From Modestobacter marinus (lineage in GTDB: Bacteria; Actinomycetota; Actinomycetes; Mycobacteriales; Geodermatophilaceae): a stretch of 64,000 bases of DNA. The notes below the pieces were generated by a model. The model worked only from the letters and a program-made list of their open reading frames with translations. It had not been told where the DNA came from and did not search any database. The DNA lies in NCBI RefSeq assembly GCF_011758655.1, contig NZ_JAAMPA010000001.1:1488001-1552000 (forward strand). The letters run 5' to 3'. Position 1 is the first letter of the stretch, and each line of letters opens with the position of its first letter. Positions 7,936 to 41,361 of this stretch are shown piece after piece. The position numbers were made by a program, and so were the translations under genes.

Positions 7936-9048
7936 CTAGGACGTCCCGCCGTAGCGCCGGTTGGCGAACCCGTTGAGCAGGGCGGCGAAGACGAGCACGA
8001 AGCCCAGCGCGAAGAGCTGGAACTGGGTGCCGGCGTTGCCCGGGACGGCGAGCAGGATCCCGGCGTTGAGCCACACGATCAGCAGCGTGGCCAGCACCAC
8101 CCCGGCGACCCGGCCGATGCCGCCGGTGATCGCCACCCCGCCGAGGACGGCGATGGTGATCGCCGGCAGGGCCATCCCGTTGCCGGCCACGCCGGCGTCC
8201 GGCCGGGCGGAGGCGAACTGGGCCACGGTGTAGACGGCGACCAGCCCGGACAGCGCGCCGGCCCCGACGTAGGCCAGGAAGCGGGTGCGGCGGACGTCGA
8301 TCCCGGTCCACTCGGCCGCGACGTCGTTGGTGCCGATCGCGTAGAGCCGGCGGCCGTAGGTGGTGCGGGCCATCACCAGCCAGATCACGACCACCGCCGG
8401 GACCAGGTAGGTGAACACCCCGAGCGGGACCGCCGGCACGGCGTCGGGCAGGAACGGGACCTCCACCGCCCGCGCGGTGGAGTACAGCTCCTGGATGGGG
8501 CGGGCGTTGATCGGCTGCTGGTCGTTGATCACCAGGGCCAGCGAGCTGAACGCGTAGTAGGTCGCCAGGGTGGTGATCAGCGCCGGGAAGCGCAGGTAGG
8601 CGACGAGGACGCCGTTGAGCGCGCCGCACAGCGCGCCGAACGCCACGGCCAGCACCAGGGACGGGAACAGCGACCAGCCCCACTCGCCGTAGGCGAAGCC
8701 GAAGACCATCCCGGTCAGCGAGACGATCGCGCCGACCGACAGGTCGATGCCGCCCCGGCCGGAGGTGATCACCAGCAGCTCGGCCAGCCCGAGCAGCACC
8801 AGCGGCACGGCGTTGATCAGCGTCGCGGCCAGGTAGGAGCTGTCGTAGGGCGCGCTGAGGTAGTTGTTGCCGCTCAGCGTCGTCATCGTGATCAGCACGG
8901 CCACGAGCAGGACGACCAGCAGCGCGATGCGCTGGGTCAGCAGGATCCGCAGCAGCCGGGCGGGCAGGCCCTCCGGCCGGTCGGTGGCGGCGCCGGGCTG
9001 CTGCTTCTCCGGTGCCGGAGCCGGGGGAGGGGTGGTCGAGGTGGTCAT
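7936..9048 (-). CDS. rhaQ: Rhamnose ABC transporter permease (second permease, RhaQ)
   Basis: The 370-residue membrane protein belongs to the BPD_transp_2 family of ribose/rhamnose importers. After about 40 proline-rich residues there are multiple hydrophobic helices starting near LLVVLLVAVLITM, and the family's signature loop GRGGIDLSVGAIVSL is present. It pairs with RhaP to form the membrane channel. The ATG at 9048 overlaps the RhaP stop (ATGA). The order DeoR-S-T-P-Q is that of the Rhizobium leguminosarum rhaRSTPQ cluster. Confidence 0.88.
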   Translation of the reverse strand: MTTSTTPPPAPAPEKQQPGAATDRPEGLPARLLRILLTQRIALLVVLLVAVLITMTTLSGNNYLSAPYDSSYLAATLINAVPLVLLGLAELLVITSGRGGIDLSVGAIVSLTGMVFGFAYGEWGWSLFPSLVLAVAFGALCGALNGVLVAYLRFPALITTLATYYAFSSLALVINDQQPINARPIQELYSTARAVEVPFLPDAVPAVPLGVFTYLVPAVVVIWLVMARTTYGRRLYAIGTNDVAAEWTGIDVRRTRFLAYVGAGALSGLVAVYTVAQFASARPDAGVAGNGMALPAITIAVLGGVAITGGIGRVAGVVLATLLIVWLNAGILLAVPGNAGTQFQLFALGFVLVFAALLNGFANRRYGGTS

Positions 9049-34902: not shown

Positions 34903-36621
34903 TCACCCGGCCCGTCGCCGCAGCAGGTCGTTGTCCAGCACCGTCTTCAGGGCGAGGGTCTTGTAGCCGACCTCCTCGAACAGGACGACGATCCGGTCGT
35001 CCTCGTGCCGCATGACGACGCCGGGGCCCCACTCGGTGTGCTCGACGGCCAGGTCCACCGGGAAGGGGTGGTCGGCGTCGGCGGTGTGCTGCTCCTGGGA
35101 GAGCCCGGCGCTGCAGTTGTCGCAGTTGCCGCACGGGGAGTCCAGCTGCTCGCCGAAGTAGCCGAGCAGGAACTGCCGCCGGCAGCCGGTCGTCTCGGCG
35201 TAGCCGCGCATCATCTCGATCCGGCTCTCGTCGACCCGGACGTGGTGCTCGGCGAGCTCCCGGGCGGCGGCCGCCGCCTCGCCGGGGGGCGGTGCGTCGG
35301 GAGCGGGGGACGCCGTCCCCTCGTCGTCCAGGACGACGGCCCCGGCCTGCTCCAGCAGGTTCAGGTCGCGGACCAGCGGGGTCGCCGGCCGGCCGGTCTC
35401 CTCCCGCAGCCCGTGCACGTCGACGCCGTCCAGCCCGGCGGCCGCCCCGGCCTGCACCAGCCCGGCGACCTGCTGCAGCTCCTCCTCGGCCGGGGCGCCG
35501 GCGGCGAAGAACTTGCGCAGCCCCAGGTCCTCCTGGCGGTACACCAGCACGGCCACCGCCGGCTCGCCGTCGCGGCCGGCCCGGCCGATCTCCTGGTAGT
35601 AGCTGTCGACCGAGTCGGCCGGCTCGGCGTGCACGACGAACCGGGTCTCCGGCTTGTCGATGCCCATGCCGAAGGCCGTGGTGGCGACGACGACGTCCAG
35701 CTCGTCGGCCATGAACTGGCGCTGGACCTCCTCGCGGTCGCTCTTCTTCAGCCCCGCGTGGTACGCCCGGGCGCGCAGGCCCCGCTCGGTGAGGGCGTCG
35801 GCGAGCTCCTCGGTGCTGCGACGGGTGGCGCTGTAGAGGATCCCGCTGCCCTGCTCGGTCAGCGCGGTCACCCGGTCGAGCACGGCGGTGTGCTTGGCGT
35901 GGCCGTCGGCCCGCTGCTCGACCTCCAGCCGGATCTCCGGGCGGTCGAAGCCGGCGACCACGACCTCCGGGTCGGTCATCTCCAGCCGCTCGACGATCTC
36001 GGCCCGCACCGGCGGTGCGGCGGTCGCGGTCAGCGCGAGCACCGTCGGGTGGCCCAGCTGCTGGACGACCCCGCCCAGGCGCAGGTAGTCGGGGCGGAAG
36101 TCGTGGCCCCAGGCGGAGACGCAGTGCGCCTCGTCGACGACGAACAGCGCCGGCGCGGACGTCCGGAGCGCCTGAACCACCTCCTGCTTGGCCAGCTGCT
36201 CCGGGGCGAGGAAGCAGTAGCGGACCGTTCCGTCACGGACGCCGTCCAGCACGGCCTGGTGCTCGAGCGCGGACAGCCCGGAGTTGAGCACCGCGGCCCG
36301 GCCGACCCGCTCCTCGCCGAGCTCCTCCAGGCGCTGCACCTGGTCACGCTGCAGGGCGATGAGCGGGGAGACGATGACGACCGGGCCGTCCAGCAGCAGC
36401 CCGGCGACGGTGTAGACCGCGGACTTGCCGGCCCCCGACGGCAGCACGGCCAGGGTGTCCCGGCCGGCGGCGACCGCCTTCATGGCGTCCTCCTGGCCGG
36501 GGCGGAACCCGTCGAAGCCGAGCACCTCCCGGGCGGTCTCCCGGATGCGCCGGGTGCGCACGGAGGCGGAGCCCCCGGCGACGGTCTTCGGGTCGGCAGG
36601 GCGCTGGGCGGTGCTCGTCAC
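34903..36621 (-). CDS. RecQ-like ATP-dependent DNA helicase with C-terminal DUF3553-like domain
   Basis: In the 572-residue product the superfamily 2 helicase core shows Walker A LPSGAGKS (about 60-67), DEAH box (about 163-166, followed by [13 protein letters not shown]) and motif [14 protein letters not shown] four-cysteine zinc cluster follows (GCRRQ and PCGNCDNC, about 480-505). Instead of winged-helix RQC and HRDC domains, the C-terminus is a short SH3-like segment ([26 protein letters not shown]) resembling DUF3553. It unwinds DNA in repair or recombination. GTG at 36621 is chosen; a TTG at 36654 is possible. Confidence 0.87.
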
Positions 36622-36698
36622 CGGCTCGGCGTCCCCGGGGCGCGAGATCGACAAACGCCACCGAGGTCAGCGGCCGGACCCGCCGGACGCCGGCGAGG

Positions 36699-38090
36699 TC
36701 AGCGATCCGCGGCGTCGACGTCCCGCACGCTCGCGGCGGCGTCCGCGCGGAGCTCCTCGTCACCGCTGGGGCCGGACCACTCGACCAGCAGGAGGGTGGC
36801 GTCGTCGCTGGTCATGCCGCCGCGACCGGCCATCAGGGCGTGGGAGAGCTGGCGCACGGTCTCCACCACGTTCAGCTGGTCGGCACCGGCCCGGGCCACC
36901 AGGTCGTGCAGCCGGTCCTCCCCGAACTGCAGGCCGCCGGGCAGCCGCTCCTCCACCACCCCGTCGGTGAAGAACAGCACCCGGTCGCCGGGCTCGAGCT
37001 GGACGGACTGCACCCGCGGCGTGCCGCCGCCGAACCCGACCGGCCGGGTGGTCGGCCCGGTCAGCTCGCGCACCACCCGCCGGCCGCGGAGCAGCAGCGG
37101 GGCGGGGTGCCCGGCGTTCACCCAGGTCAGCTCGCCGCTGACGGTGTCCAGCTCGCCCATCTGCGCCGTGGCGAACCGGCCGGGGAACTGCGTGGCGATG
37201 GCGGCGTCCATCTCGGCGTAGAGGTCGACCAGCCCGATGCCAGCCCGGCGGGCGTGCCGGTAGGCGGCCACGGCCACCGTGGCCATCGTCGCGGCATCGA
37301 GCCCGTGGCCCATCGCGTCGATGATGCACAGCTGGAGGGCGTGCTCGTTCAGCGCGTAGTCGAAGCTGTCGCCCCCGACGTCGTAGGCGGGCTCCAGGAT
37401 GCCGGCCAGGGTGACCCGCGGGGTCACCATGCTCAGCGGCGGCAGCAGCTGCCACTGGATCTGGGCGGTCAGGCTCATCTCGCGCCCGCGGCGGCCGTTG
37501 AAGAACGCGTCGGTGTACTTGCCCTTGGTGATCAGCATGTCGGCCACCAGGCCGGCCAGCCGCCGGGCCAGCCGGCGGTCGTCGTCGTCGACCTCGGAGA
37601 GGGTGAAGGACAGCACCCCGACCCGGTCCGAGCCGTCGAGCATCGGCAGGTGGAGGCGGACGCTGCCGTCCGGCTGGACGAGCTCGACGGTCGAGTCGGT
37701 GGCGAAGGCGCGTCCGGGCGGGCTGCCGTCGATGGCGACCGGCTCGTTGTCCTGCAACCCCTCGCCCTCCAGCGGCAGCAGGGTCTTCTGGTCGAAGTCC
37801 TGCAGCCAGATGGCGATGTCCCGGCCGCCGACCGCGGCCAGTTCCTGCGCCACGAGCGGCGCCACCAGTCGCGGGGGCAGCACGTGGGCCCGGTCGATGA
37901 GCGAACCGAGCAGCCGTTCCCCGGCGCTCTCCGCCCGGGAGGGTGGATCCGGACGGGAGAGCCCGGACCGGTCCGCGTCGGGACCGGATGGGGGGTTGGC
38001 GGGCACCGAGGGCCTCCGGCGGTCGGACGGGCGAGGACGGTCGCTGCGCCGGGACGGCACGTCGGTCGAGGCGACCCTAGGTGGCAGCAC
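36699..38090 (-). CDS. GAF-like/SpoIIE (PP2C-type) protein phosphatase
   Basis: The 463-residue protein has a disordered Arg/Pro-rich N-terminus (about 1-60), a GAF-like sensory domain (about 75-215) and a SpoIIE-type phosphatase domain (about 245-445) with metal-binding motifs GGDSFDY, IDAMGHGLDAAT and TSDDATLL. Such proteins act in partner-switching pathways, dephosphorylating anti-sigma-factor antagonists. No anti-sigma or STAS gene adjoins it. The GTG start at 38090 is uncertain; a GTG at 38060 is in frame. Confidence 0.82.
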   Translation of the reverse strand: MLPPRVASTDVPSRRSDRPRPSDRRRPSVPANPPSGPDADRSGLSRPDPPSRAESAGERLLGSLIDRAHVLPPRLVAPLVAQELAAVGGRDIAIWLQDFDQKTLLPLEGEGLQDNEPVAIDGSPPGRAFATDSTVELVQPDGSVRLHLPMLDGSDRVGVLSFTLSEVDDDDRRLARRLAGLVADMLITKGKYTDAFFNGRRGREMSLTAQIQWQLLPPLSMVTPRVTLAGILEPAYDVGGDSFDYALNEHALQLCIIDAMGHGLDAATMATVAVAAYRHARRAGIGLVDLYAEMDAAIATQFPGRFATAQMGELDTVSGELTWVNAGHPAPLLLRGRRVVRELTGPTTRPVGFGGGTPRVQSVQLEPGDRVLFFTDGVVEERLPGGLQFGEDRLHDLVARAGADQLNVVETVRQLSHALMAGRGGMTSDDATLLLVEWSGPSGDEELRADAAASVRDVDAADR

Positions 38091-38141: not shown

Positions 38142-39593
38142 TCACCTCCAGGAGTCGAGCCAGAACCGCAGGTCCAGGGCGTCGGACGTCAGGGGGATGC
38201 CCAGCCAGACGGGGGCGAAGAAGGCGAACCCGGCCACGGAGAGGGCGAGCGCCACCGCACCGGCCAGCCGTGGCCGCCGGGTCGCCTGCACCGCACGGAC
38301 CAGGGCCAGGGCGATGAAGGGCACCACCGGCACCATGTAGAAGAAGTAGCCGGGCTTGTTCTCGGCCAGCCAGGGAGCCCACAGCAGGGCCAGCGGGACC
38401 AGGATGGTGGCCGCTACGCCGTCCCGGCGGGCGACCGCCCGCCAGATCAGCACCGGGTAGGCCAGCAGGGCCGGCCACCACAGGCCGGGGTTGCCGAGCA
38501 TGACGATGCGGGCCCGGGTGTCCGGCGGCACCTCGCACTCGCCGTCCTCCTGCTGCGCGGTGGTGCAGCTCTCGGCGTAGACCAGCACCGGCCGTTCCAG
38601 CCAGGGCCACCCGAGCGGGCTCGAGCGGTAGGGGTGGGTCGCCTCCAGGCCCACGTGGTAGTCGACCAGGTCGACCTGGCTCTGCGCCCAGCTCCCCAGC
38701 CGGTCGCCCACCGAGGTGCCGCAGTCGCCGGCCTCGCAGGCCTGCTGGGCGGCGTAGCTCTCGGGGTAGTTGGCGAACCAGCCCGCGAAGCTGGCGACGT
38801 AGACGGCGGCGGGGACCAGCAGCAGGCTCAGCACGGCCCCGCCGGTGACCGCCAGCGCGCGGCGGGTCGCCCGGCGGGCCGTCTCGCCGCGGCCGCTGAG
38901 CTCGGTGCCCAGCACCAGCAGGCCGACCAGGCCGACGGCGAGCAGGCCGGACCACTTGGTGGCCACCGCGAGCCCGAGCGCGAGCCCGGCCAGCCAGCGG
39001 TAGCGGGAGCCGACGAAGGACCGGCGGAGTGACTCCCCGGCGGTCCGGGTGCGGCGGCGGGCGTCCCGGTCGAGGAGCACGAGCCAGAACGCGGCCAGCA
39101 CGAAGAGGGCGAGGACCGCATCGAGCATCGCGATCCGGCTGGACGTCACCGCGAGGCCGTCCAGGGCGACGAGGACGGCGGCCAGCGCCGCCGGGGCCAT
39201 CCGGCGGAAGAGCCGGAGCCCGCTGAGGTAGGTGAGCAGCACGGTCAGCGAGCCGGCGGTGGCCACGCCGATGCGCCAGCCGAACGGGGTGGCGCCGAAC
39301 AGCTCGATGCCGGCCGCGATCACCCACTTGCCCAGGGGCGGATGGGCCGGGCGGCCCTCCTCGACGCCCCGGGTCAGGTAGTCGGAGGCGTCGACGGCGT
39401 AGTACTTCTCGTCGAAGTAGAGGCGGACCGGGTCGCCGAGGTCCCACAACCGGATGGCGGCGGCCAGGGCGAGCAGCGCCAGGGGCACCGCCCACCGCAG
39501 GACGCCGGGCGGCGGGCGACGCACAGAAGACGGGCGGCGCCCGGAGGTGCCGCCCGTCTCCTGTTGCACGACCGAGGATGCGGTCGCGCTCAC
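38142..39593 (-). CDS. pmt: Protein O-mannosyltransferase (PMT, GT39)
   Basis: The 483-residue polytopic protein matches actinobacterial PMTs. After the first helix it has the catalytic acidic pair in the first extracytoplasmic loop (LYFDEKYYAVDASDYL), then AHPPLGKW and multiple membrane helices, ending in LDLRFWLDSWR. It transfers mannose from polyprenyl-phosphate-mannose to Ser/Thr of secreted proteins during Sec export. GTG at 39593 is the first plausible start. The Thr/Glu-repeat lipoprotein is encoded 31 nt upstream on the same strand, and a polyprenol-phosphate mannose synthase is divergent, so donor, enzyme and a candidate acceptor are grouped. Confidence 0.87.
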   Translation of the reverse strand: MSATASSVVQQETGGTSGRRPSSVRRPPPGVLRWAVPLALLALAAAIRLWDLGDPVRLYFDEKYYAVDASDYLTRGVEEGRPAHPPLGKWVIAAGIELFGATPFGWRIGVATAGSLTVLLTYLSGLRLFRRMAPAALAAVLVALDGLAVTSSRIAMLDAVLALFVLAAFWLVLLDRDARRRTRTAGESLRRSFVGSRYRWLAGLALGLAVATKWSGLLAVGLVGLLVLGTELSGRGETARRATRRALAVTGGAVLSLLLVPAAVYVASFAGWFANYPESYAAQQACEAGDCGTSVGDRLGSWAQSQVDLVDYHVGLEATHPYRSSPLGWPWLERPVLVYAESCTTAQQEDGECEVPPDTRARIVMLGNPGLWWPALLAYPVLIWRAVARRDGVAATILVPLALLWAPWLAENKPGYFFYMVPVVPFIALALVRAVQATRRPRLAGAVALALSVAGFAFFAPVWLGIPLTSDALDLRFWLDSWR

Positions 39594-39624
39594 TGGTCTG
39601 GTGCCCCAGCGATCGGTCGAGGAC

Positions 39625-39909
39625 TCAGCCCTCGGTCTCCGTGACGTCGACGTCGAACTCGGTCTCGGTCTCGGTGTCGACCTCGGTCTCGGTCTCGACG
39701 ACCTCTTCCTCGGTCTCGGTCTCGGTCTCGGTCGGCTCGAGGGTCTCGGTGACCTCGGTCTCGAGCTCCTCGGTCTCGGTGAGCTCCTCGGTCTCGGTGA
39801 CCTCCACCGTGCCGTCGTCGTCCGCGTTCTCACCGCTGCACGCGGAGACGCCGAAGACGAGGAGGCCGGAGAAGGTGGCGGCGGAGACGCCGCGGACGAG
39901 CTTGTTCAT
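39625..39909 (-). CDS. Short lipoprotein with Thr-Glu repeat tail
   Basis: The 94-residue product has a lipoprotein signal (MNKLVRGVSAATFSGLLVFGVSAC, lipidated Cys24; lipobox VSAC). It is followed by about 70 residues that are almost entirely Thr, Glu, Val and Asp: roughly 19 Thr and 26 Glu, in runs such as TETETETEEE. The DNA is correspondingly a chain of ACC-GAG hexamers. ATG at 39909 has AGGAG 7 nt upstream. No fold is expected; it looks like an extended, highly acidic surface stalk. It is probably in the pmt operon, which makes it a good candidate O-mannosylated substrate. Confidence 0.75.
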   Translation of the reverse strand: MNKLVRGVSAATFSGLLVFGVSACSGENADDDGTVEVTETEELTETEELETEVTETLEPTETETETEEEVVETETEVDTETETEFDVDVTETEG

Positions 39910-39983
39910 GGGGTGCTCCTGAGTTCGGGGGAAGCGGTCGCTCAAAGGCATGACCGCATATCCCCGCCCTCACACACCCGGGG

Positions 39984-40044
39984 TGCATAACGATCGGGTC
40001 ACAGCGCATGAACGTTTCTGTCGCACATGAATTGCACAACGATC
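39984..40044. repeat. Direct repeat TGCAYAACGATC in the pmt/ppm divergent control region
   Basis: TGCATAACGATC (39984-39995) and TGCACAACGATC (40033-40044) differ at one base and start 49 bp apart. They lie in an unusually AT-rich 210-bp gap between the lipoprotein/pmt operon and the mannose synthase gene. They may be a shared regulator site. No known consensus is matched. Confidence 0.35.
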
Positions 40045-40119
40045 CGATAACGCAGGTGTCGCGGAAATGATGTTGAAGAAGTGCGTGTCCACCGGGTGGG
40101 CGCTGGTAATGGCGGGATC

Positions 40120-40896
40120 GTGAATCCTCCGGCCACGTGCGTCTGCATCCCCACCTACGAGGAGCGGGAGAGCCTGCCGCGCACGCTGGACGGCGTGCTG
40201 CGCGCCGTCCCGGACGCCCACGTGCTGGTGATCGACGACAACAGCCCCGACGGCACTGGCGAGCTCGCCGACCGGCTGGCCGCCGAGGACCCGCGGGTCC
40301 ACGTGCTGCACCGCCCGGGGAAGGCAGGGCTGGGGCCGGCCTACATCGCCGGCTTCCGCTGGGCCCTCGCCCAGGGCTTCGACGTGGTGGCGCAGATGGA
40401 CGCCGACGGGTCGCACCGCCCCGAGGACCTGCCGCGGCTGCTGGCCGGGCTCGCCCGGGCGGACGCCGTGCTGGGCTCCCGCTGGGTGCCCGGCGGCGCC
40501 GTCGCCGACTGGCCGCGCAGTCGGGAGCTGCTCAGCCGCGGTGCCAACCGGTACGTCCGGGCCGCACTGCGGCTCCCGGTGGGTGATGCCACCGGGGGGT
40601 TCCGGGCGTTCCGCCGGCACACGCTGGAGCGGCTGGACCTCGACGCCGTGCAGAGCCAGGGCTACTGCTTCCAGATCGACATGGCCCGCCAGGTGTGGAG
40701 CCGGGGGCTGCGGTTGGTGGAGGTGCCGATCCTGTTCGTGAACCGGGAGTTCGGCGCCAGCAAGATGAGCTCGCGGATCATCCGTGAGGCGCTGGTCCGG
40801 GTCACGGCCTGGTCGCTGAGCTCCCGCCGGCCCGCGCCTGCGGTCCGCCCGGCGAGCACGGGTGGCGAGCGACTGGTCCACCGGGTCGCCGCCTGA
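40120..40896 (+). CDS. Polyprenol-phosphate mannose synthase-like GT2 glycosyltransferase
   Basis: The 258-residue protein is a DPM1/Ppm1-like GT2 enzyme. It has CIPTYEERESL (nucleotide-binding strand), VIDDNSPDGTGELAD, the metal motif MDADGSH, and GYCFQIDM and EVPILFVNREFGASKMS in the C-terminal half, all diagnostic for dolichol-phosphate-mannose synthases. It would make polyprenyl-phosphate-mannose from GDP-mannose at the cytoplasmic membrane face, the donor for PMT encoded divergently. It lacks the fused acyltransferase domain of mycobacterial Ppm1. GTG at 40120 is chosen; an in-frame GTG lies at 40081. Confidence 0.85.
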   Translation: MNPPATCVCIPTYEERESLPRTLDGVLRAVPDAHVLVIDDNSPDGTGELADRLAAEDPRVHVLHRPGKAGLGPAYIAGFRWALAQGFDVVAQMDADGSHRPEDLPRLLAGLARADAVLGSRWVPGGAVADWPRSRELLSRGANRYVRAALRLPVGDATGGFRAFRRHTLERLDLDAVQSQGYCFQIDMARQVWSRGLRLVEVPILFVNREFGASKMSSRIIREALVRVTAWSLSSRRPAPAVRPASTGGERLVHRVAA

Positions 40897-40926: not shown

Positions 40927-40933
40927 GCGTTGG

Positions 40934-40962
40934 TTGTCCGTCCGCAGTTGCGGACGTACGGT
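40934..40962 (+). promoter_or_regulatory. Promoter with operator inside the -35/-10 spacer
   Basis: TTGTCC (40934-40939) and TACGGT (40957-40962) are separated by 17 bp. That spacer holds the palindrome GTCCGCA-GT-TGCGGAC (40940-40955), a copy of the TCCGCA-NN-TGCGGA core. The predicted transcription start falls on the GTG at 40969, implying a leaderless mRNA that is shut off when the operator is bound. Confidence 0.6.
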
Positions 40963-40968
40963 GCTCGG

Positions 40969-41361
40969 GTGTCCACCTCGTACCGGATCGCCGAGGCCGC
41001 GGCGCTGCTCGGGGTCAGTGACGACACCGTCCGCCGCTGGATCGACGGCGACCGGCTGTCCGCGACCCGTGACGGGGGCCCGGCGCAGGTCGACGGAGCG
41101 GAGCTGGCCCGGGTCGCCGCCGAGCTGCACGAGACGCCGCAGCCCGGCGCCACCCGTTCGTCCTCGGCGCGCAACCGGCTGACCGGCATCGTCACCCGGG
41201 TGGTGCGGGACACCGTGATGGCGCAGGTGGAGATCCAGGCCGGGCCGTTCCGGCTGGTCTCGCTGATGTCCCGCGAGGCCGCCGACGAGCTGGGCCTGGA
41301 GCCCGGCGTCCGGGCGGTGGCCACGGTGAAGGCCACCCAGGTCAGCGTGGACGTGCCGTGA
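40969..41361 (+). CDS. Molybdate-responsive-type regulator: HTH plus Mop/TOBE domain
   Basis: The 130-residue protein joins an excisionase/MerR-like HTH (SYRIAEAAALLGVSDDTVRRWIDGDRL, residues 3-29) to a molybdopterin-binding-type Mop/TOBE domain (RNRLTGIVTRVVRDTVMAQVEIQAG...LVSLMSREAADELGL, about 65-128), which binds molybdate or tungstate in ModE and Mop proteins. It differs from E. coli ModE, which has a larger winged HTH and two Mop modules. It directly precedes modA (GTGA overlap), so it most likely senses molybdate and controls its own operon through the tandem TCCGCA-NN-TGCGGA sites. Confidence 0.85.
   Translation: MSTSYRIAEAAALLGVSDDTVRRWIDGDRLSATRDGGPAQVDGAELARVAAELHETPQPGATRSSSARNRLTGIVTRVVRDTVMAQVEIQAGPFRLVSLMSREAADELGLEPGVRAVATVKATQVSVDVP

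Follow-up and report, generated by a model that had tools for sequence, protein, structure and literature searches.

A divergent protein O-mannosyltransferase gene paired with a Thr-Glu lipoprotein gene suggests a dedicated mannosylation cassette in Modestobacter and Blastococcus

We analyzed a 64,000-nucleotide (nt) stretch of the Modestobacter marinus genome (the window; contig NZ_JAAMPA010000001.1, positions 1,488,001 to 1,552,000) in which a gene for a second, divergent protein O-mannosyltransferase (PMT), here called pmt2, lies next to a gene for a small Thr-Glu lipoprotein. On the other side of the lipoprotein gene is ppm2, which encodes a second polyprenyl-phosphate-mannose synthase (Ppm). 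Pfam matches and coordinates agree with a first-pass annotation of the window that had placed these three functions side by side; ppm2 is transcribed divergently. We consider it fairly likely that the genes form a specialized protein O-mannosylation cassette dedicated to one lipoprotein, in which pmt2 and the lipoprotein gene are an enzyme-acceptor pair. Some soil and stone bacteria would then carry what is probably a second, private version of a sugar-coating pathway beside its probable dedicated target. The three genes are:

38142 to 39593, minus strand: pmt2, a divergent GT39 protein O-mannosyltransferase paralog of 483 amino acids, with a GTG start at 39593.
39625 to 39909, minus strand: the Thr-Glu lipoprotein, the probable acceptor, of 94 amino acids, with the Cys24 codon at 39838-39840.
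40120 to 40896, plus strand: ppm2, a second, putative polyprenyl-phosphate-mannose synthase of family GT2, divergent from the lipoprotein gene.

The lipoprotein gene comes first on the minus strand, and 31 nt separate its stop codon from the GTG start of pmt2. The pmt2 frame is open further upstream; the GTG follows soon after the lipoprotein stop, and the start region is in frame across loci. Open-frame lengths in two genomes (G105 and G091) had suggested a lipoprotein-PMT fusion, which was ruled out by a TGA separating the two genes. Because ppm2 is on the opposite strand and divergent from the lipoprotein gene, the three genes are not one operon.

Our survey covered 112 genomes of the family and 397 genomes sampled from the order. 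PMT matches were present in 109 of the 112 family genomes, and pmt2 orthologs in 16 of them, at 69-100% identity with the window's own copy included; all other PMT matches were <50% identical. A search for the lipoprotein in the same 112 genomes returned exactly these 16 and none of the other 96, 80 of which have a completeness of 90% or more and a contamination of 5% or less. The lipoprotein gene adjoins pmt2 in every carrier: it was read by script upstream of pmt2 and on the same strand in 15 loci, and the sixteenth (G105) was read separately. Nine carriers, M. marinus included, belong to the Modestobacter group and seven to the Blastococcus group, and each has a second PMT match 36-41% identical to pmt2. 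The first-pass annotation had proposed looking among relatives for a pmt without the lipoprotein, and in none of the 16 carriers does pmt2 stand alone. Its idea of a dedicated acceptor gains strong genomic support for pmt2; it does not extend to ordinary PMTs, which occur without the lipoprotein. Among the 397 order genomes, the lipoprotein search gave 15 matches, 14 of them in known carriers. The fifteenth (G403; 40% identity, 21.8 bits) looks exported, is rich in Thr and Pro, and contains Thr-Glu pairs; we took it for a match by composition. Searching the same set for PMT gave no pmt2-type gene among the matches listed beyond the 14 known carriers, the others being 35-42% identical.

For comparison, a script searched 80 PMT loci of named genomes for Thr-rich (at least 18%) lipobox open reading frames. 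Such a frame lay directly upstream of the PMT gene, where the first-pass annotation had described it, in all eight pmt2-type loci. None of the 72 others had one in that place, and upstream sequence of at least 500 nt was available for 68 of them. Three of the 72 had one elsewhere, two (L090 and L149) about 3-5 kb off and one (L150) about 0.8 kb downstream. The last of these (about position 8246, plus strand), close to the end of the fetched stretch and behind an actinobacterial PMT of the ordinary kind, has no Thr-Glu tract; it may be the start of a carbohydrate-binding module.

The lipoprotein has a signal peptide ending in a lipobox (VSAC) and a mature part of 71 residues. The mature part contains 19 Thr, or 27%, close to the one quarter first estimated, together with 26 Glu, 6 Asp, 1 Ser, 1 Pro, and no Lys or Arg. 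All 16 orthologs have 14-20 Thr in the mature protein. AlphaFold gave no confident fold for eight sequences (mean pLDDT 57). The protein thus fits a trait of PMT substrates, being exported with a Thr-rich segment that is probably disordered, to judge from the low-confidence model. Summed over pairs, fourfold-site divergence is 0.155 for the lipoprotein gene versus 0.373 for pmt2, a difference that codon bias or some other constraint may explain.

The PMT of the first-pass annotation is a second, divergent paralog; the other PMT match in the M. marinus genome, at C1:415121-416545, is 37% identical to it. Pfam places pmt2 by PF02366 (100.5 bits against a cut-off of 22.7, 1.5e-28) and PF16192 (54 bits against 32.4, 2e-14). 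The AlphaFold model (mean pLDDT 81) has fungal Pmt4 and Pmt1-Pmt2 chains as its seven best PDB matches (9i5k_A, E 1.3e-10; 6p25_B, 6.8e-9; TM by query, 0.72), predicting a GT-C fold closest to these enzymes. Other GT-C enzymes matched less well: the oligosaccharyltransferase AglB ranked 8 and ArnT 13, and EmbB also matched.

We compared the active sites of the 16 PMT2 orthologs with those of 94 other PMTs, each taken from a different fetched locus (residue numbers follow P0001, which starts one codon before the GTG). D62, E63, H85, and D159 are kept in all 16, and the putative catalytic Asp pair, D62 in EL1 and D159 in EL2, is also found in all 94 others. From motif and spacing, we infer that they are equivalent to D74 (EL1) and D176 (EL2) of the Mycobacterium tuberculosis enzyme (MtPMT), given as its catalytic Asp residues in the accessible part of PMC12331936. 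Position 414 is Lys in all 16 PMT2 orthologs and Arg in all 94 others. The EL5 motif is accordingly K-x2-Y in all 16 orthologs, with Y417 kept; MtPMT has R-x2-Y (R441 and Y444), and the 94 others have Phe (90) or Tyr (4) as the second motif residue. As far as that source goes, R441K left M. tuberculosis PMT almost fully active, while Ala or Leu there abolished activity (PMC12331936). Two candidate signatures of pmt2 were dropped. Its EL1 is short (24 residues, against 28-54 in canonical PMTs), and so is that of the four PMTs inspected from this family. A lost aromatic at the position of MtPMT Y371 is not specific either, as Leu stands there in 15 of the 94 others, including the same four.

Which further enzymes accompany the pair varies. 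ppm2 matches PF00535 (7e-33), and its best solved relative is a dolichol monophosphate mannose synthase (5mlz, 4e-30); it reached no NCBIfam equivalog cut-off. With a GT2 domain close to dolichol-P-mannose synthase, it probably encodes a polyprenyl-phosphate-mannose synthase. Another ppm copy in the M. marinus genome is 61% identical to it. Orthologs of ppm2 (at least 73% identity; next copies at most 66%) occur in 10 of the 112 genomes, all carriers, and adjoin the lipoprotein gene in all 10. A GT87-family gene, absent from the window, lies tail to tail with pmt2 and overlaps its 3' end in six Blastococcus carriers and in Modestobacter lapidis. Orthologs of this linked gene (at least 75% identity) occur in those 7 of 112 genomes and other GT87 matches are 31-41% identical; PF09594 was found in all four of the seven proteins that were scanned (40.5-44.4 bits, cut-off 25). 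Neither ppm2 nor linked-GT87 orthologs were found in the 96 non-carriers. A general GT87 match elsewhere in the genome was present in all 16 carriers. Eight Modestobacter genomes have ppm2, the lipoprotein gene, and pmt2; M. lapidis (G089) and Blastococcus xanthinilyticus (G023) have all four genes; five genomes (G004, G007, G009, G021, and G022) have the lipoprotein gene, pmt2, and the GT87 gene; and one (G010) has the pair alone. Since ppm2 orthologs occur in only 10 of the 16 carriers, the invariant unit is the pair and not the trio. Conservation of the trio, which the first-pass annotation had asked to be checked, thus holds for pmt2 and the lipoprotein gene but not for ppm2, which is optional; that annotation had overlooked the GT87 gene of 7 of the 16 and the hairpin described below.

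Three observations on single carriers belong here. In G009, no full-length general Ppm was found despite the presence of pmt2, only a C-terminal match (query residues 186-243, 72%) and weak homologs; masking, a rearrangement, or a true loss could account for this gap. In M. lapidis, pmt2 is followed about 3.5 kb downstream by a gene encoding Band_7 and Flotillin domains (L061, 12763-14307). In G004 (L067), the lipoprotein stop and the aligned pmt2 start are separated by about 100 nt that resemble a decayed duplicate of the start region, and long G runs there may be assembly noise.

Two further elements, and the neighboring genes, complete the locus in the window:

39523 to 39564, minus strand: a GC-rich hairpin within the 5' coding part of pmt2.
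39987 to 40002, minus strand: an RTNAY-N6-RTNAY direct repeat upstream of the lipoprotein gene, resembling GlnR/MtrA boxes.
34903 to 36654, minus strand: a RecQ-type helicase gene (PF16124, PF00270), one border of the cassette site.
36699 to 38090, minus strand: a SpoIIE-domain gene (PF07228) between recQ and pmt2.
40930 to 41361, plus strand: a TOBE/HTH regulator-like gene (PF03459, PF12728), the other border.

Each of the 16 loci has a GC palindrome in the early coding sequence of pmt2, at a distance of 39-141 nt from the lipoprotein stop; in the window, its core starts 69 nt past the stop. We assessed covariation over 18 named pairs in 15 distinct rows. Ninety percent of cells pair, and 24 cells are doubly changed, versus 8.9 ± 2.9 in shuffled and at most 11 in slid versions. 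Seven pairs changed on both sides, a count equaled by a slide of +3 columns (7) and reached by 7 of 500 shuffles; the other covariation measures are clearly above both controls. The inner 11 pairs are nearly invariant; covariation is carried by the outer 7, and some of these pair poorly (one of them in 5 of the 15 rows). At the clearest covarying pair, 7 rows have A-T, 7 have G-C, and 1 has G-T, and the encoded residues are Thr...Ser with A-T and Ala...Leu, Arg, or Gln with G-C. This coupling, judged from the sequences, does not obviously arise from protein selection alone. The 141-nt region 39500-39640, other stems included, folds at a z-score of -4.9. Across the genome the hairpin pattern is single-copy at fewer than two mismatches and has one more match when two are allowed; a backwards control gave 6. 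We favor an attenuator or messenger RNA (mRNA) processing element, with a DNA operator as the alternative.

Upstream of the lipoprotein gene, RTNAY-N6-RTNAY occurs within 250 nt in 13 of the 16 loci (missing in G089, G010, and G091), against a background of 0.017 per 250 nt of one strand. The GlnR box is GTnAC-n6-GTnAC in the accessible text of PMC10704036, and MtrA sites akin to the repeat appear in that of PMC13189361. The repeat resembles these and is a candidate GlnR/MtrA-like box.

We propose the following scheme. The lipoprotein would be exported, lipidated at Cys24, and held on the outer face of the membrane, where PMT2 would move mannose from polyprenyl-phosphate-mannose onto Thr residues of the Thr-Glu tract. 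Where present, ppm2 would boost donor supply and the GT87 enzyme would extend the mannose chains; in carriers lacking either gene, the step in question would fall to the general copy of the cell. The result would be a mannosylated lipoprotein that is small and strongly acidic. Through attenuation or mRNA processing, the hairpin near the start of pmt2 would probably hold the enzyme at a lower level than the lipoprotein it acts on. The lipoprotein is the likeliest acceptor because the linked enzymes each duplicate one step of the pathway and their constant partner is rich in acceptor-type and acidic residues.

The history of the site bears on this proposal from both sides. The recQ and regulator matches are 52-129 base pairs (bp) apart in eight of the nine cassette-lacking Modestobacter genomes examined (of 14) and 987 bp apart in the ninth (G104), and the same site holds 1.4-3.8 kb of other DNA in all 10 cassette-lacking Blastococcus genomes examined (of 16). 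The SpoIIE-domain gene at 36699-38090 has no match at that place in the loci of 15 relatives. In a recQ tree of the 16 carriers and 19 non-carriers (35 genomes), the pair needs four gains or losses, at least three of them forced by well-supported branches, which counts for the proposal; against it, the 16 carriers then represent about four independent events and not 16. That so few changes suffice, in two genera only, would suit a neighborhood that merely hitchhiked among a handful of related strains without being functionally linked. We regard this as very improbable, as the pair is found together at another genome position in M. lapidis, persists while ppm2 and GT87 come and go, and keeps its short junction with the hairpin in all 16 loci. 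Compared with the window, G105 is 90% identical in RecQ and in the lipoprotein and only 69-70% in PMT2, below the 72-77% to the Blastococcus proteins; the candidate substrate is therefore better kept than the enzyme.

On the acceptor side, the Pro (and Ala) enrichment of PMT sites is missing, with 1 Pro in the 71 mature residues. Mycobacterial mannosylation sites, including those of M. tuberculosis, are enriched in Pro in the accessible part of PMC12331936, and so the mycobacterial analogy drawn in the first-pass annotation is looser than stated. Thr-majority columns of the mature lipoprotein show 17 departures (9 Val, 5 Glu, 1 Ile, and 2 gaps) and none to Ser, a pattern that a requirement for beta-branched residues would explain as well as one for an acceptor hydroxyl. 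The register of the tract is fixed across both genera, with Thr at 12 columns and Glu at 17 in at least 15 of the 16 orthologs, which seems stricter than expected of a disordered acceptor. This register would suit a binding partner better than a free acceptor, and, in keeping with the lack of Ser as well, PMT2 could then mannosylate other exported proteins, with the lipoprotein as adaptor, chaperone, anchor, or co-regulated envelope protein. Ordinary PMTs do act on many proteins; 44 characterized mannoproteins of one species were used in PMC12331936, as its accessible part has it. We nevertheless judge such an accessory role unlikely: the mature lipoprotein is little beyond its Thr-Glu tract and has no confidently predicted fold, and an extra general enzyme is not obviously needed where every carrier has a second PMT match.

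On the enzyme side, pmt2 scored 183.9 bits against the 800-bit cut-off of the NCBIfam PMT equivalog NF058602; the other M. marinus PMT, translated over its match, is likewise below it (343.2 bits). A basic acceptor groove was looked for in PMT2 and not found. Its EL4 region is instead more acidic, with a mean net charge of -8.5 versus -1.2 in the 94 other PMTs, and would not suit an acidic acceptor unless cations bridge the two. PMT2 also has Thr in EL4 where 78 of the 94 others hold a second Cys, and has its own Cys at 344. The C-terminal part of EL4 is tied to Pro-rich acceptors in the accessible text of PMC12331936, and an altered EL4 beside an almost Pro-free partner is suggestive, no more. 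The low equivalog score and the donor-site Lys in place of Arg leave room for a changed donor, and a mature protein with 32 acidic and no basic residues could act without glycosylation, for instance as an acidic tether that binds cations or minerals. PMT2 and GT87 might then transfer another sugar or build a surface glycan, and AglB, ArnT, and EmbB do match the PMT2 model, if less well. We think this quite improbable, since the seven best structural matches are all protein O-mannosyltransferases and the linked ppm2 is nearest dolichol-P-mannose synthase among solved structures, which points to mannose. The enzyme-acceptor reading remains the one we prefer, our confidence in it being held down by the lack of Pro, the absence of Thr-Ser exchange, and the acidic EL4.

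More tentatively, and with somewhat more doubt than conviction, we suggest a self-contained, separately evolving single-substrate cassette of donor synthase, PMT, GT87 extender, and one lipoprotein, in which the PMT left Pro-rich acceptors for a nearly Pro-free Thr-Glu tract and the in-gene hairpin sets the ratio of enzyme to substrate. The role of the sugar is hard to tell where ordinary bacterial PMTs modify many proteins; a PMT bound to one tiny Thr-Glu protein would be a minimal natural system of one enzyme and one protein. A WW-like loop has been proposed, in the accessible part of PMC12331936, to make bacterial PMTs choose Pro-rich sites, and the pmt2 pair would test this proposal because the paralog's partner is almost without Pro.

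The first-pass annotation knew of no described system of this form, and we found none among the matches listed in the open-access literature. Caldicellulosiruptor bescii resembles the cassette in that the GT39 gene Cbes_1864 shares a glucan degradation locus with the acceptor CelA; the gene is needed for glycosylation, its deletion having removed protein glycosylation, and the accessible text mentions no Thr-Glu lipoprotein (PMC6151902). There, however, more than one enzyme is affected, the acceptors being large multidomain cellulases that carry Thr-Pro linkers, and data on the attached sugar conflict, as far as the accessible part of PMC12757957 goes. In Streptomyces coelicolor, which also has ppm1 and pmt, SCO4022-SCO4023 likewise set a ppm1 homolog next to a gene resembling that of a dolichyl-phosphate-mannose transferase; however, SCO4023 is annotated PMT_2 (PF13231), and no linked Thr-rich lipoprotein is mentioned in the accessible part of the source (PMC5882110). 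The mycobacterial GT87 enzyme PimE extends a first mannose and other actinobacteria have other GT87 members, according to the accessible text of PMC12757957. Actinobacterial O-mannosylation as a whole, with Ppm1, a PMT of GT39, and extension by GT87, uses the same three enzyme families as the cassette; that pathway serves many substrates, whereas the second copies of the cassette lie with the gene of a single lipoprotein. In the serine-rich repeat adhesin loci of Gram-positive bacteria, too, a repeat-rich surface protein is encoded next to glycosyltransferases dedicated to it; these loci work with cytoplasmic enzymes, nucleotide sugars, and an accessory Sec system. Unlike those loci, the cassette would combine a lipid-linked donor with membrane enzymes of the GT-C type.

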